Part shown: piece after piece, positions 1,442 through 29,894 of the stretch
Numbering within the stretch: the stretch's first letter is position 1
Layout: each line of letters begins with the position of its first letter
NCBI GenBank assembly: GCA_020080175.1
Contig: JAGHQL010000243.1
Span: 1-29,894, forward strand
Source: Glutinoglossum americanum
Lineage: Eukaryota > Ascomycota > Geoglossomycetes > Geoglossales > Geoglossaceae
Direction: 5' to 3'
Length of the DNA stretch: 29,894 bases
Notes under the pieces: generated by a model
The model's input: only the letters and a program-made list of their open reading frames with translations
Database searches by the model: none
What the model was told of the DNA's origin: nothing
Made by a program: the position numbers and the translations under genes

Positions 1442-3166
<1,725 letters not shown>

Positions 3167-3216
3167 TAATAAAAAGAAATAGTTTACCATTATGTAAAAT
3201 ATTTGAATAAATAAAA

Positions 3217-3287
3217 ATCTTATTAGCTTAATGGTAGAGCAGGATACTTCTAATATCTAGATCCAAGTTCAAATCTTGGATAAGAAT
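3217..3287 (+). tRNA. trnR: tRNA-Arg (UCU)
   Basis: The anticodon stem GGATA/TATCT encloses loop CTTCTAA with anticodon TCT, reading AGA/AGG. The T arm is CCAAG-TTCAAAT-CTTGG. The acceptor ATCTTAT/ATAAGAA has a mismatched first pair, so the exact 5' end may differ by one base. It is the first of 11 tRNAs between cox1 and rnl. Confidence 0.9.
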
Positions 3288-3482
3288 TAAATTCATTAAG
3301 ACTATTTAGTTATATATATATATATATTATAAGTTATAAAGATAAAATATATCTATTAAAATAAACATAAAACATATTAGGAATGGTTAGTTATTAATAT
3401 TTATAAATATTAATATTAAAAACTTAAACATATTAATAATATATTTTATTATATTATACTATTATTTCTTTTTTTTATTTAA

Positions 3483-3553
3483 GCCTTTATAGCTCAATGG
3501 TAGAGCAAAATACTGTTAATATTTGTATAGATGTTCGATTCATCTTAAGGGCT
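3483..3553 (+). tRNA. trnN: tRNA-Asn (GUU)
   Basis: Acceptor GCCTTTA pairs with TAAGGGC, and stem AAATA/TATTT encloses loop CTGTTAA with anticodon GTT. The D arm GCTCAATGGTAGAGC is intact. Confidence 0.92.
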
Positions 3554-3581
3554 AAAATTAGTCCTTGTTCATATTTATAAA

Positions 3582-3654
3582 AACGCGTTAGCTTAAGGGT
3601 TATAGTATTGTGCTACGGACACAAAGTATACAAGTTCGAATCTTGTACGCGTTT
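3582..3654 (+). tRNA. trnR: tRNA-Arg (ACG)
   Basis: Acceptor AACGCGT pairs perfectly with ACGCGTT. Stem TTGTG/CACAA encloses loop CTACGGA, anticodon ACG, for the rare CGN codons. The T arm ACAAG-TTCGAAT-CTTGT is canonical. A decayed copy of this gene and about 40 bp of its 3' flank lies at 29008. Confidence 0.93.
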
Positions 3655-4248: not shown

Positions 4249-4320
4249 AAGAGCATAGTTTAATAGGCAAAATAGGAAGCTTCAAACTTCAATTTCTCAG
4301 TTCAAATCTGAGTGCTCTTG
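4249..4320 (+). tRNA. trnW: tRNA-Trp (UCA), reads UGA and UGG
   Basis: Acceptor AAGAGCA pairs with TGCTCTT. The anticodon loop CTTCAAA carries TCA, which decodes TGA as tryptophan and so agrees with the many in-frame TGA codons in this genome. Confidence 0.93.
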
Positions 4321-14904: not shown

Positions 14905-15174
14905 ATGAATTTAACATTAATACTTTTTTTAATAGGAATCTTAGGTTTTGTTCTAAATAGAAAAAATATAATCTTAATGCTTATTTCTATAGAAATAATG
15001 TTATTATCTATTACAATTTTAATATTGATAAGTTCACTTAGCTTTGATGATATATTAGGTCAAACATTTGCTGTTTATATTATAGCAATAGCTGGTGCAG
15101 AATCAGCTATAGGTCTAGGTATTTTAGTAGCTTATTATAGATTAAGAGGAAGTATTACAATAGAATATAAATAA
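14905..15174 (+). CDS. nad4L: NADH dehydrogenase subunit 4L
   Basis: Nad4L is a three-helix complex I membrane subunit of the proton channel near the quinone cavity. The 89-residue product is full length. It has the conserved [16 protein letters not shown] with its glutamate, and [20 protein letters not shown] with the second conserved glutamate. The stop TAA overlaps the nad5 start by one base (TAATG), the usual arrangement in Pezizomycotina, which implies coupled translation. Confidence 0.97.
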
Positions 15175-18137
15175 TGTATTTAGCTATAATTGTCTTACCT
15201 TTATTAGGATCGTTCGTTTCGGGGTTTTTTGGTAGAAAAATTGGAGTTTTTGGAGCACAAATAATAACATGTGGTTCTGTAATAACAACAACATTAATGG
15301 CCATATTGGCTTTTATTGAAGTAGGTTTAAATAATATACCTGTATCAATACAATTATTCAGATGAATAGATTCGGAATCACTTAATGTACTATGAGGTTT
15401 TTATTTTGATTCTTTAACAGTATCTATGTTAATACCTGTATTAATAGTATCTTCTTTAGTACATGTATACTCAATAGGATATATGAGTAATGATCCGCAT
15501 AATCAAAGATTTTTTAGCTATTTAAGTTTATTTACTTTTATGATGATAATACTTGTTACAGCTAATAATTTTTTATTGATGTTTGTTGGTTGAGAAGGAG
15601 TAGGAATTTGTTCATATCTTCTTGTAAGTTTTTGATTTACTAGAATAGCTGCAAATCAAAGTTCTATGTCTGCTTTTTTAACAAACAGGGTTGGTGATTG
15701 TTTTTTAACAATAGGTATATTTGCTATATTGTGATCTTTTGGTAATATAGATTATTCTACAGTATTTTCATTAGCACCATATATTAATGAAAATATTGTT
15801 ACTATAGTTGGTATATGTTTATTAATAGGTGCTATGGCTAAAAGTTCTCAAGTTGGATTGCATGTTTGATTACCTATGGCTATGGAAGGTCCTACACCTG
15901 TTTCTGCATTAATACATGCAGCTACTATGGTAACAGCTGGTGTATATTTATTAATGAGAACATCTCCCTTAATAGAATATAGTTCTACAGTTTTAATATT
16001 ATGTTTATGAGTAGGAGCTATTACTACTATATTTAGTTCTCTTATAGGTTTATTTCAACAAGATATTAAAAAAGTTATAGCTTATTCTACTATGAGTCAA
16101 TTAGGTATGATGGTAATAGCTGTAGGTTTGTCATCCTATAATATAGCTTTATTTCATTTAGTTAATCATGCTTTCTATAAAGGTCTTCTTTTCTTAGGTG
16201 CTGGAGCTGTAATACATGCTGTAGCTGACAATCAAGATTTTAGAAAATATGGTGGACTAAGACCATTTTTACCTTTAACATATTCAGTTATGCTAATAGC
16301 TTCTCTTAGTTTAGTTGCTTTCCCTTTCATGACTGGGTTTTATTCTAAAGACTTTATACTTGAATCAGCATATGGTCAATTTTATTTTTCTAGTACTGTT
16401 GTTTATTTCATAGCTACTATTGGTGCTATGTTTACTACATTATATTCAGTTAAAGTTTTATATTTAACTTTTTTAACTAATCCTAATGGACCTTTAATTA
16501 ATTATAAACAAGCTCATGAAGGTGATATATTTATGAGTTTACCTTTAATTATTTTAGCTATTTTTTCAATATTCTTTGGTTATATTACTAAAGATATTTT
16601 TATAGGATTAGGTTCTAATTTTTTTGTGGATAATAGTTTATTTATTCATCCTTCACATGAAATAATGCTTAATACTGAATTTGCTGTTAGTACTTTTTTT
16701 AAATTGTTACCTTTAATATTTACTATATTATTAAGTATATTATCTATAATTTTATCGGAATTTTTATCCAAATTACTTCTAAAATTTAAATTTTCTAATC
16801 TTGGTTATAATATATTTAGTTTTTTTAATCAGCGTTTCTTAATTGAACTTTTTTATAATAAATATATTACTGGTGTTATCTTAAAATTAGGTGGTCAAAC
16901 AACTAAGATTATAGATAAAGGTTCTATTGAATTGTTAGGACCTTATGGTTTAGAAAGGGGATTACTTAATATAAGTAAAAATATTGCTAGTTTAGATACT
17001 GGTGTTATAACATTTTATGCTTTATATATTTTAATAGGACTAATTTTCTATATATTAACACCTTACCTTTCTTTAGTTAATAATAGTTTATTATTATTAA
17101 TATTATTTGGTTTATTTAGTATAACTAAAAATAAACTACCTGTTATTAGTATTCCAACTCCTCCTACTAAATCATGTTATTATGTACATTGATCTCAATA
17201 TAGTAGTTTTGATTTAACGATGTTGTTATATAATATTAAAGAAAAATTCTTTAATATAAAAAACATTCTTACTATTTTGATAGTTTCTTTATTAATATTT
17301 ATTGTTAGATATATTTTGCTATATTTAGGTTATCCTCCTAATATATCATTTGTTTTATTTTATTTATTTAAAGGTATTAAAACTATATTAAATAGTCTAA
17401 TAGATGATTCTAATATATTTATGTATATAGAAAGTAAAATAGGTGATATAAATTCTTTTAATAAAAATTATAATGATAAAGAATTAAAAAATTTTCATAT
17501 ACTTTGTATGGATAGAGAAAAAATAGAGGAATTTCAAAAGGTACCTACAATTAGTCAGGCTAACCCTGATAATAAATGAAATCAATGAACACCTGGACTT
17601 AAACCTGTACCAGGGACAGTTACTCCTGATGTAGAAGATATGTGTTATACACCGGCTGAAAAATTAGAATGATTACAATTTTTTCAAAATAAGCGTTTAA
17701 ATCTATATAAAACAGAACCTATGTTAAAAGAAGTAAATCTAGATTTACTAGATAAAAAATCTAATATAGCGCAGCATAAATTAAAAGAGCTTTATGATGC
17801 TCAACGGGGTTTAGAACAATGAAAAAAATATGGTAATGATTTTTGGCAACAAAGTCCTCCATATTCAGTACGAACTACTCAACAAAATTGTGTTAGACAA
17901 CTTATTGATATTAATAAAATATTAGGTAGAGAATATAGCCCTGAAGTGATAAAGGATACAGCAAATAAGCGGGAAGTTTATTTGCGTGTTAATAAAAAAT
18001 GAAGCGATACATTTAATGGCTTATATAAAGATCAATTGAACAGACCTTATTTTATAGAAATACGTGAATCAATTAAAACTGAATCATCTTTATCTAGTTC
18101 TTCTAGGTCTGATTCACCTATCCAAGAGTATAATTAA
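15174..18137 (+). CDS. nad5: NADH dehydrogenase subunit 5 with a ~305-residue in-frame C-terminal extension
   Basis: Nad5 is the distal antiporter-like proton pump subunit of complex I. Residues 1 to about 682 are ordinary Nad5: [18 protein letters not shown], the channel block [20 protein letters not shown], and [18 protein letters not shown]. The frame does not stop there. It passes TGA at 17190 and reaches M683 at 17220, then runs to TAA 18135-18137, 987 residues in all. The extension has one membrane helix (about 698-718), the motif LGYPPN, then a hydrophilic domain with a Pro-rich stretch ([18 protein letters not shown]), probable helices rich in Lys/Glu/Gln, and a Ser-rich end ([12 protein letters not shown]). 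It contains one TGG tryptophan and codons such as CGG, GCG and CAG that are scarce in neighbouring genes. I do not recognise the domain. It could instead be a separate protein started at ATG 17220. The Nad5 body is certain; whether a fusion protein is made is not. Confidence 0.93.
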
Positions 18138-18417: not shown

Positions 18418-18690
18418 ATGAAAATTTTAAAATTTTTTACAGTCTTAAAGCAAAAGCCTTTTAATTTTAATAGATTAATTGCTTTATTTATATCTGGCAT
18501 CATTATTTTTTGTTTTAAATATTATTTTAGTTATATAGGTTATGTTCCCGACTTTTCACTTATATTTATTATTTTTTGTGGATTATTAAAATCTATTATA
18601 TTTATTTGTGTAGAATCTATTCGTGTGCCTTATTTAAATACTATTGATGATATATCAAAAATTAAAAAATATATTAATAATAAAGAATAA
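18418..18690 (+). CDS. unknown 90-residue membrane ORF, paralogue of the nad5 extension
   Basis: The function is unknown. ATG 18418 to TAA 18688 encodes a Lys-rich N-terminus (MKILKFFTVLKQK), one or two hydrophobic helices (about residues 19-40 and 46-63), and a short charged tail ending IKKYINNKE. It aligns with the membrane part of the nad5 extension: KPFNFNRLIALFISGIII / [18 protein letters not shown], then YYFSYIGYVPDFS / [13 protein letters not shown], then CGLLKSIIF / KGIKTILNS. It lacks the large hydrophilic domain. It could be a truncated duplicate or a shorter functional member of the family. Composition resembles the surrounding AT-rich DNA. Confidence 0.6.
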   Translation: MKILKFFTVLKQKPFNFNRLIALFISGIIIFCFKYYFSYIGYVPDFSLIFIIFCGLLKSIIFICVESIRVPYLNTIDDISKIKKYINNKE

Positions 18691-22846: not shown

Positions 22847-22993
22847 ATGCCACAATTAGTACCTTTTTTTTTTATAAATCAAGTAATATTTGCTTTCATA
22901 TTGCTAGTATTAATGTTATACATATTTTCAAAGTATATATTACCTAGTAGATTACAATTATTTATAACACGTCTATTTATAAGTAAATTATAA
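22847..22993 (+). CDS. atp8: ATP synthase subunit 8
   Basis: Atp8 is a small single-helix subunit of the F0 stator that holds Atp6 in place. The 48-residue product begins MPQLVPFFFINQ, the fungal signature, followed by one helix (VIFAFILLVLMLYIFSKYIL) and the basic end RLQLFITRLFISKL. Length is exactly typical. Its position is odd: atp8 normally sits right before atp6 in Pezizomycotina, but here cob lies between them. Confidence 0.95.
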   Translation: MPQLVPFFFINQVIFAFILLVLMLYIFSKYILPSRLQLFITRLFISKL

Positions 22994-23245: not shown

Positions 23246-25714
23246 ATGCGTATTTTGAAAAGTCATCCTATATTAAAAATGGTTAATTCTTACACCATAG
23301 ATTCACCACAGCCATCTAATTTAAGCTATTTATGAAATTTTGGTTCTTTATTAGCTTTTTGTTTAATTATACAAATAGTTACAGGTGTAACTTTAGCCAT
23401 GCATTATAATCCAAGTGTGTTAGAAGCATTTAATTCAGTTGAACATATTATGCGTGATGTAAATAATGGTTGATTAATTCGTTATTTACACTCTAATACT
23501 GCTTCAGCTTTTTTCTTTTTAGTTTATTTACATATAGGAAGAGGTTTATATTATGGATCATATAGAGCTCCTAGAACTTTGGTTTGAACTATAGGTACAA
23601 TTATATTTGTATTAATGATGGCTACAGCTTTCCTGGGTTATAAATATAGCCCAAAATGGTTTAACACAAAAAAATTAAAAGGTAATATATTAAATAAAAG
23701 ATTATATAATAAAAATAAGATAGAAAACAAAAGAGGATATAGCACAAGCTGTTCTTCAAATAAGAATATTTCTTTACAAGACATAAGACTAAAAACAATA
23801 ATAGATGAATTAGATATAAATCCTGTATATATTTTCGAATGTTTAAATTTAGAAAATACTAGGAAACAAATATTAAAAAATACTAAAGATTTAAGTGGTA
23901 TATATATGATAATTAACAAAATAACCAAAGATTATTATATTGGTTCCGCAGCAACTAATAGATTTTATTCTAGATTTTCTAATCATCTTATTTATTTCAG
24001 AGGTAGCAAAATAGTTAAATTAGCTGTTGCTAAGTATAAAATAGAAAATTTTGCTTTTATAATATTAGAATTATATCCTAATATTGTAACTAAAGAAAAT
24101 AATAAAGAATTAATAGATTTAGAAGATAAATATTTAAAATTATTATTACCTAATTATAATATTTTAACTGAAGCAGGTTCAAGTTTCGGTTATAAACACA
24201 CTGAAATAGATCGTCAAAAAATGAAAGATATATATAATGATGCTAGACGTGAAAAAATAGGTAGTTTAAATAAAGGTAAAAATTTATCTAAAGAAACAAT
24301 AGAAAAGATGAAAGAAATAGCTTTGAATAGACCTCCTATGTCAAATGAAACAAAACAAAAATGTATATCACATACAATACCTGTTATATTGTATAATTTG
24401 AACGGAACTATATATGGTAAATATTCAACTATTATAGAAGCATCAAAGGCTATAAATTGTAATGAAAAAACTATTAGAAGAGCATTACAAACAAAGAAAA
24501 AGTTAGTAAAAAGACAATGAATAGTTGAAGATATTTCTAATAAATAAATATCTATTATATTTTTGTTGCTATCCATAAATTACCCTTTTTAATTATTATG
24601 TTAAATTATAGTCCCATTAGTAACAATATTTTTGCAATTTTTATAGAAAAAAAAATATTAAAGTGGTATAGCCCGACAGGGGTATAAAATAATCATGGTG
24701 ATTATTTGGCGATGTTAGTGAAAACGATCAAAGAAATTTTTTTTATTTTAAGATCGTCGGTTATATAAATGATCGCGACAGACTGGGTCACTAATGGGTG
24801 GCTGAAATGCTGCTTAATGCACAGTCGGAACTTCTTTGTAAAAGTTACAAAGTAGAATATTCGAAATAAAAGTTATTCTAGCTCTTTATTAGTATAGAGT
24901 AAGTTTGTATGTTTTACCTTATGGGCAAATGAGTTTGTGAGGTGCCACAGTTATAACTAATTTAATGAGTGCTATACCTTGGGTTGGACAAGATGTAGTT
25001 GAATTTATATGAGGTGGTTTTAGCGTTAATAACGCTACTTTAAATAGATTTTTTTCATTACATTATGTATTACCTTTTATATTAGCAGCATTAGCTTTAA
25101 TGCATTTAATAGCATTACATGATAGTGCAGGATCAGGTAATCCTTTAGGTGTATCTGGTAATTATGATAGATTACCTTTTGCTCCTTATTATATTTTTAA
25201 AGATTTAATTACTATATTTATTTTTATTTTAGTTTTATCTCTTTTCGTATTTTATATGCCTAATTTATTAGGAGATAGTGAAAATTATGTTATGGCTAAT
25301 CCAATGCAAACACCGCCTGCCATAGTACCTGAATGATATTTATTACCTTTTTATGCTATATTAAGATCTATACCTAATAAATTGTTAGGTGTTATTGCTA
25401 TGTTTTCAGCTATTTTAATTTTATTAGCTATGCCTTTTACTGATATGTCTAGATCTAGAGGTATACAATTTAGACCTATTAGTAAAATAGCTTTTTTTGT
25501 TTTTGTGGGTAATTTTTTAATTTTAATGTTATTAGGAGCTAAACATGTTGAATCACCATTTATAGAATTTGGACAAATATCAACAATATTATATTTTTTA
25601 TATTTTTTAATTATAGTACCTTTTATTAGCTTACTTGAAAATAGCTTAGTTGAATTATCTATCTATAACAATAGTTTAAATAAATCATCTAAACATTTTA
25701 CTAAGTTAATTTAA
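23246..25714 (+). CDS. cob: apocytochrome b, two exons
   Basis: Cob is the haem-bearing core of the bc1 complex (complex III). Exon 1 is 23246-23638 (393 nt, ending TTCCTGGGT) and exon 2 is 24908-25714, joined to give 399 residues with [21 protein letters not shown] across the junction. Hallmarks: [21 protein letters not shown], the haem-ligand histidines in TLAMHY and [10 protein letters not shown] plus [10 protein letters not shown], and in exon 2 FSLHYVLPF, the SGNPLG loop region, [18 protein letters not shown] (PEWY of the Qo site). The end is [11 protein letters not shown] 25712. The intron site corresponds to the known cob position 393. Codons close to both splice sites look atypical (see findings). 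Confidence 0.96.
23639..24547 (+). CDS. GIY-YIG homing endonuclease, in frame with cob exon 1
   Basis: This intron-encoded DNase makes the intron mobile and may help splicing. The frame continues directly from cob exon 1 without a stop and ends at TAA 24545, after a TGA tryptophan at 24518. The first 80 or so residues are a linker. The catalytic module follows: [19 protein letters not shown] (GIY...YIG) at 23897-23953, with an Arg downstream in [11 protein letters not shown] and a glutamate region [22 protein letters not shown]-binding repeats come next: NUMOD3-like [12 protein letters not shown] and [14 protein letters not shown], then a NUMOD1-type helix-turn-helix, [20 protein letters not shown] followed by [16 protein letters not shown]. 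It looks intact. As usual it would be translated as a fusion with exon 1 and then cleaved. Confidence 0.93.
23639..24907 (+). other. group I intron in cob at position 393
   Basis: The intron splits cob after codon 131; exon 1 ends in T and the intron ends in G, as in group I splicing. The conserved core lies after the ORF: a structured GC-richer stretch at about 24660-24860 with R-like GCGACAGACTG (24775-24785) and S-like GCACAGTCGGAAC (24819-24831), whose GACTG and CAGTC halves can form P7. The ORF starts in frame with exon 1 and occupies the 5' part. I have not assigned the subgroup. Confidence 0.9.
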
Positions 25715-29232: not shown

Positions 29233-29894
29233 ATGAATAGCCTTTTTGTTTTAAACGAAACTTATACTAATGGTTTCAGGGTCGAAATTTTAGATTTTCT
29301 TACAATACTTTCTATACTATGTGGTGTGTTTGTTATTATTAGTAAAAACCCTATAGTATCTATTCTATTTTTAATAGGTTTATTTTTAAGTGTATCTATA
29401 TATTTAATAATGTTAGGATTAAACTTCATAGGTATATCTTATTTATTAGTTTATGTAGGAGCAGTATCAATATTGTTTATTTTTATATTAATGTTAATAA
29501 ATGTTAGAGTTTCTGAATTATTAAGTTCTACTAGTAATACTATACCCTTAGCTATTATAATAGCTATATCATTTTATACATCTATGTATGAAATGTTACC
29601 ATATAGCATAGCAGCATATACTAGTTATACTGAAAATTTAAATACAATATTTAATAATATTTTACTGAATGATACAAACTATTTTAATCAGATTTTTAAA
29701 TTTTTAAATGATAAAGATGAAATAGCATTTGTAACATCTAAATTATGAGATGGTAATTTAGCAGAAACTACACATATATCTAGTTTAGGTAATATAATGT
29801 ATACTAATTATTCTATTTGATTAATAATAGCTTCTATAATATTATTATTAGCTATGGTAGGTGCTATTGTTATAACAATAAAACAAAAAAATTA
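29233..29894 (+). CDS. nad6: NADH dehydrogenase subunit 6, crossing the window junction
   Basis: Nad6 is a membrane subunit of complex I with five helices near the quinone site. From ATG 29233 the frame continues through TGA tryptophans (first at 29746) to the last base. Its stop TAA is completed by the base after the overlap (position 56), giving 220 residues. Family signs: FLTILSILCGVFVIISKNPIVSILFLI, the pi-bulge helix GISYLLVYVGAVSILFIFILMLIN, and a hydrophobic final helix LLLAMVGAIVITIKQ. A variable loop with SYTENLNTIFNNIL separates helices 4 and 5. Confidence 0.97.
29840..29894. repeat. terminal direct repeat showing circular topology (copy 2)
   Basis: This is identical to 1-55. See copy 1. 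Confidence 0.93.

Follow-up and report, generated by a model that had tools for sequence, protein, structure and literature searches.

The nad5 reading frame

The window, by which we mean the whole stretch of 29,894 nucleotides analysed here, is the mitochondrial contig of Glutinoglossum americanum, one of the 317 contigs of a 25.8-Mb assembly. The mitochondrial genome is circular, the contig ends overlapping by 55 bases, and TGA is read as Trp. The usual gene set is present, including a fungal-type atp8 at 22847-22990 and nad6 at 29233-29892, the stop codon of the latter being completed across the joint of the contig ends. The cob gene (23246-24547) is split, and its first exon reads in frame into an ORF with GIY-YIG and NUMOD1 domains, which is an ordinary intron-ORF arrangement. 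ARAGORN, run under the bacterial code, reported a tRNA-SeC (anticodon tca) at 4249-4320, which with TGA as Trp is the mitochondrial tRNA-Trp.

Under code 4, nad5 runs on the forward strand from the ATG at 15174 to the TAA at 18135-18137 as a single frame of 987 codons, in agreement with a preceding sequence-only reading of the locus, according to which neither TAA nor TAG appears before 18135. The body of Nad5 (15174-17138, forward strand; residues 1-655) was delimited by Pfam, by alignment to the Nad5 of the PDB entry 7zm7 and by hydropathy. The Pfam domains PF00361, PF00662 and PF06455 (Proton_antipo_M, Proton_antipo_N and NADH5_C, with E-values of 5e-75, 2e-18 and 3e-8) all pass their curated cut-offs, and the last domain stops at residue 628. 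The Nad5 of 7zm7, which we take to be from Chaetomium, is the best PDB match of the product and covers residues 1-646, while hydropathy places the next-to-last and the final helix of the body, TMH16 and TMH17, at approximately 17001-17057 and 17067-17123 of the forward strand, respectively. Since the 7zm7 alignment and the Nad5 proteins of two other fungal mitochondrial contigs (L001 and L003) stop after the body, the usual end of Nad5 would fall near residue 655-665. The sequence-only reading was thus right about the in-frame continuation, but placed the end of the body too far downstream, near residue 682.

The product is a Nad5 by its domains but not by its length. It counts 987 residues, compared to 687 in L001, 679 in both L003 and 7zm7, and 655 in 6gcs, and the fungal Nad5 proteins among the examples compared typically measure about 655-690 residues and end after the last helices. 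Beyond the body, approximately 330 codons continue in frame without TAA or TAG. At the base frequencies of the stretch itself, the probability that its last 304 codons and the stop form an open frame is about 4e-11; in a first-order Markov control, none of 2000 simulated sequences was open, the longest run being 119 codons, and the remaining forward frames of the same stretch contain 25 and 40 stops. A sequencing error affecting a stop near 17193 had been named as a possible objection. Such a loss of the usual nad5 stop, by an error of either sequencing or assembly, is next to impossible in view of the low chance probability, and is contradicted by the presence of the same fusion in contigs from two sources (ena and jgi).

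Architecture of the extension

The extension begins with a variable linker (17139-17222, forward strand, as are all the parts that follow; residues 656-683), the last codon of which is the ATG at 17220, and which shows 29-47% identity to seven relatives when computed over residues 651-683. It is followed by a probable membrane hairpin module (17223-17399; residues 684-742), recognised from its conservation, from hydropathy and from a low-confidence model, and by a second variable linker of varying length (17400-17507; residues 743-778), with 22-45% identity to seven relatives over residues 746-778. A conserved, helical hydrophilic domain (17508-18059; residues 779-962) then starts at a near-universal Met-Asp. 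The protein closes with a variable Ser-rich tail (residues 963-987), delimited in a nine-row alignment of the extension (A5), which together with the TAA stop occupies 18060-18137. The tail of the window protein (18060-18134) and those of P0005, P0006, P0007 and P0015 end in a common motif near GSPMQ or SPMQES, which in A5 is absent from P0009, P0013 and P0014.

Within the hairpin module, the helix at residues 698-716 is clear by hydropathy, while the helix at residues 724-742, which holds an FKGIK motif, is weaker; in the window protein it lies under the hydropathy threshold and includes two Lys residues. This second segment is clearer by hydropathy in the relative P0014 and in a nearby reading frame, orf90, described below, and the model of the extension shows two helices in the hairpin, at low confidence. 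The stretch ahead of the hairpin contains 6 Lys/Arg compared to 2 Asp/Glu. The hydrophilic domain is predicted to be helical, with block pLDDT values of 75-92 across residues ~824-943, and the mean pLDDT was 59.8 when the extension was modelled alone and 38.3 for full-length Nad5.

Conservation and distribution of the fusion

Residues 683-987 of the full-length protein were used to search for relatives, the candidates admitted measuring 543-1727 residues and thus being long proteins only. This length-matched search yielded 11 proteins, with 45-65% identity in the extension, and every one of them carries Nad5 domains (E-values of 1e-70 to 3e-126). P0008-P0012 are five near copies, judged by length, score and one compared stretch, which leaves approximately seven distinct groups among the 11. 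The comparison of nad5 3' ends across relatives, proposed earlier as a check, consequently revealed the same in-frame fusion in all of the long proteins. The extension is a real, conserved and lineage-specific part of a mitochondrial core subunit.

Compared to seven relatives, identity amounts to 89-95% in the body (for P0009 over 412 of 650 positions), 22-47% in the linkers, 47-66% in the hairpin, 49-75% in the helical domain and 21-52% in the tail. Because neighbouring stretches differ so sharply in identity, this modular contrast points to selection on the protein, and on a folded domain within it. Alignment A5 has 56 invariant columns, every one inside the helical domain, although its P0001 row falls short of the hairpin, so that hairpin columns could not count as invariant. 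A different explanation would be that Nad5 ordinarily includes the extension in this clade and has already been annotated with it, the added part being an inert tail without a distinct function, and P0004, P0007 and P0017 are indeed named simply NADH-ubiquinone oxidoreductase chain 5 in one source. We find this quite improbable, since an inert tail would hardly retain so many invariant columns, and the helical domain is far better conserved than the linkers.

The sequence-only reading had also raised the possibility of a translation start at ATG 17220. This is disfavoured by the poor conservation of Met 683, which recurs at the corresponding alignment position in P0016 alone; in P0009, P0013 and P0014 a Met follows one residue later, and P0004-P0007, P0015 and P0017 have none at or near this position. 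The Met-Asp at residue 779 (17508), on the other hand, is found in 17 of the 18 proteins compared, a figure that includes near copies, the exception being P0003, which does not align across that stretch. Such a conserved Met would suit separate initiation, and it may be asked whether the helical domain acts in the matrix as a protein on its own, either cut free within the linker or translated from ATG 17508, the fused frame serving only to express it. The variable linkers that flank the hairpin on either side would agree with this.

Two extension-sized queries for free copies returned four and six proteins, four of which were common to both, giving six distinct proteins. P0004 and P0017 are also fused to Nad5, and end where the aligned residue of the window protein is a Trp encoded by TGA, while P0002, P0003 and P0016 sit on contigs of 874, 722 and 695 bases, respectively. 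At most one of the six is a free copy: the candidate is P0001, a protein of 188 aa that starts exactly at the conserved Met-Asp, on a 6463-base contig where the upstream frame is not readable. P0001 thereby favours release to some extent, but it is the only such candidate, and the frame is joined in all 11 long relatives despite their differing linker lengths, though these were found as long frames. Taken together, we consider release of the domain somewhat unlikely.

The Nad5 proteins of L001 and L003 (72% and 82% identical) end normally, and no continuation of the extension was found behind their nad5 stops. Across the three MAG records containing L001, L002 and L003, the best match of the extension profile had an E-value of only 0.25. 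When 13 Nad5 bodies, partial ones among them, were placed on a tree, a single change of state was enough to account for the 10 rows that carry the extension; this grouping has weak support (73/71), one change sufficing in 72% of 200 bootstrap trees, and no inner branch of the tree is strongly supported. L002 would fall either beside or among the extension-bearing rows, and its contig ends at Nad5 residue 532, ahead of the extension.

L001, L002 and L003 are fungal-type mitochondrial contigs inside GTDB records titled Mucilaginibacter, Caulobacter and Bacilli MAGs, which is contamination. In L002, cox1 and nad4L share an uninterrupted reading frame of 652 codons (1636-3594), a further in-frame fusion in a related fungal mitochondrial genome. 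Just ahead of its cob gene, positions 1-156 give a second match to Nad5 residues 515-566 (52-62%), which is possibly a duplicated piece of nad5.

A second hairpin-like frame downstream of nad5

The frame orf90 (18418-18690, forward strand; 90 codons) lies downstream of nad5. Its local alignment to residues 677-770 scores 110. In the controls, 2000 shuffled versions of orf90 reached no more than 69, windows of the Nad5 body 36, and seven other mitochondrial reading frames at most 52. Comparison of orf90 with the A5 profile gave a probability of 96.4. Scanned in all six frames with the same profile, the window yielded nad5 and orf90, the next matches having E-values of 0.6. Judged by these alignments, orf90 is a paralogue of the hairpin module, i.e. 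a diverged copy. The DNA repeats D1 and D6 link the extension and orf90 at offsets of 1204 and 1183, which would be compatible with one old duplication but is weak alone in AT-rich sequence. No further copy of the extension or of orf90 was found in the rest of the 317-contig assembly.

The copy stops roughly where the second linker runs out and the helical domain would be expected to follow, an observation that would again suit a domain made or released separately. No decayed helical domain was found after orf90, the profile hits there having E-values of 5 or worse among the matches listed.

Family, fold and origin

Profile searches of the extension against known families gave no credible match in Pfam, NCBIfam or PHROGs. 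For the nine A5 members the best E-values were 0.015, 0.012 and 0.0038, respectively, each found in at most four of the nine, and all lie above the E-value of 0.001 that was used as the limit for assigning a family. The hydropathy and profile data thus bear out the initial description of an extension that combines a membrane segment with a hydrophilic region and has a domain matching none of the families searched. The A5 profile matched none of the PDB chain sequences at E-values up to 10, and a fold search of PDB and BFVD gave no significant match with a query model (mean pLDDT 59.8) that is good only at residues ~824-943. No credible polymerase, homing endonuclease or maturase domain was detected in the A5 members; the HNH-endonuclease family of PHROGs reached an E-value of 0.043 at best, in three of the nine. 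A plasmid collection produced no match, though this collection is mostly bacterial and hardly probes fungal mitochondrial plasmids. A Nad5 extension of this kind is not described in those parts of the open-licence literature on nad5, complex I/ND5 or Aureobasidium mitogenomes that were covered, including PMC7999263, PMC8672057, PMC4227064, PMC8762328 and PMC8329847 (nad5 being absent from the last).

The sequence-only reading had explained the locus by a foreign or plasmid-borne ORF inserted in frame, pointing to deviant codon use. Part of this deviation is seen, weakly: Arg is encoded by CGN in 6 of 12 cases in the extension and in 12 of 89 elsewhere (p 0.007), and Ala by GCG in 1 of 5 and 1 of 232 cases (p 0.04), both p values being nominal and uncorrected for the number of tests. 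The other codon signs examined did not hold up, as Trp TGG (1 of 6 in the extension and 0 of 53 elsewhere, p 0.10), CAG, CCG and GC3 do not differ significantly from elsewhere. The paralogous hairpin frame nearby could likewise be taken as a trace of an inserted element, as could an inverted repeat. There are 40 AT-rich inverted pairs, and the longest among the 25 listed, in a raw listing without a chance control, is an imperfect pair of 33 nt and 73% at 17091-17123 and 18651-18683, with one arm where the body ends and the other where orf90 ends.

Set against these signs is the presence of the same fusion in all 11 long relatives, at extension identities down to 45%, together with the lack of any credible match to the plasmid- or intron-borne families searched. 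That nad5 of this genome recently took up a foreign ORF, whether from a plasmid, an intron or elsewhere, is therefore very improbable, and this explanation was rejected.

A possible role as a built-in domain of complex I

On balance, though with modest confidence, we favour the reading that the conserved C-terminal extension of Nad5 is a covalently attached accessory domain of complex I, situated beside NDUFA11, uncleaved and probably on the matrix side. The ribosome would make a single 987-residue protein from nad5, and after TMH17 the chain would enter the short membrane hairpin, starting on the matrix side at the NDUFA11 arch, and be brought back to the matrix by it. The helical hydrophilic domain would then end the chain, most likely in the matrix and near NDUFA11, ND2 and ND4, where it may stabilise either the junction between membrane-arm modules or the interface with complex III.

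The placement of the extension builds on the ND5 of Yarrowia lipolytica (NU5M), which is like the window protein in its antiporter-like body and has an extra TMH17 after TMH16. According to a review, TMH17 of Yarrowia occupies the cavity formed by the arch of NDUFA11, a subunit that stabilises the junction between both modules of the membrane arm and, in mammals, provides the contact with complex III within the membrane (PMC8762328). If the window protein shares the TMH17 plan of Yarrowia, its extension would start on the matrix side, and the excess of Lys/Arg ahead of the hairpin fits such an orientation. The topology of the hairpin is the weak point of this proposal, because its second helix lies under the threshold and carries two Lys residues; if that helix does not cross the membrane, the helical domain would instead be located in the intermembrane space.

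In length, the window protein differs from the solved chains of Yarrowia ND5 and of the Nad5 of 7zm7, which have 655 and 679 residues, by being approximately 330 residues longer. A likeness in working only is offered by NDUFB8, a nuclear-encoded, single-helix accessory subunit that is described, in the same review, as combining a membrane helix with a matrix domain and binding over the lateral helix of ND5 (PMC8762328). In contrast to subunits of the NDUFB8 type, the domain here lies within the mitochondrial nad5 gene. The variable region of Fusarium mitochondrial genomes presumably holds a large, free-standing ORF of unknown function, which, compared by description only, is alike in being a clade-restricted mitochondrial protein of unknown role, whereas the extension is fused to a core subunit.

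A further idea, which we hold to be rather unlikely, is that a single protein family born in the mitochondrion gave rise to both the extension and orf90. The hairpin would have been duplicated, the copy fused to Nad5 having a new matrix domain and the other being a small membrane subunit in its own right, which pairs with the first. If this is true, complex I or a I-III supercomplex of one fungal clade would have gained two new parts encoded in mitochondrial DNA.

The core subunits of mitochondrial complex I are usually held constant or shrinking, while new parts come from the nucleus. If the favoured reading of an attached accessory domain is true, a large conserved domain has been gained inside the mitochondrial genome, near NDUFA11, which would be a rare example of how a core subunit can acquire an accessory domain of its own.
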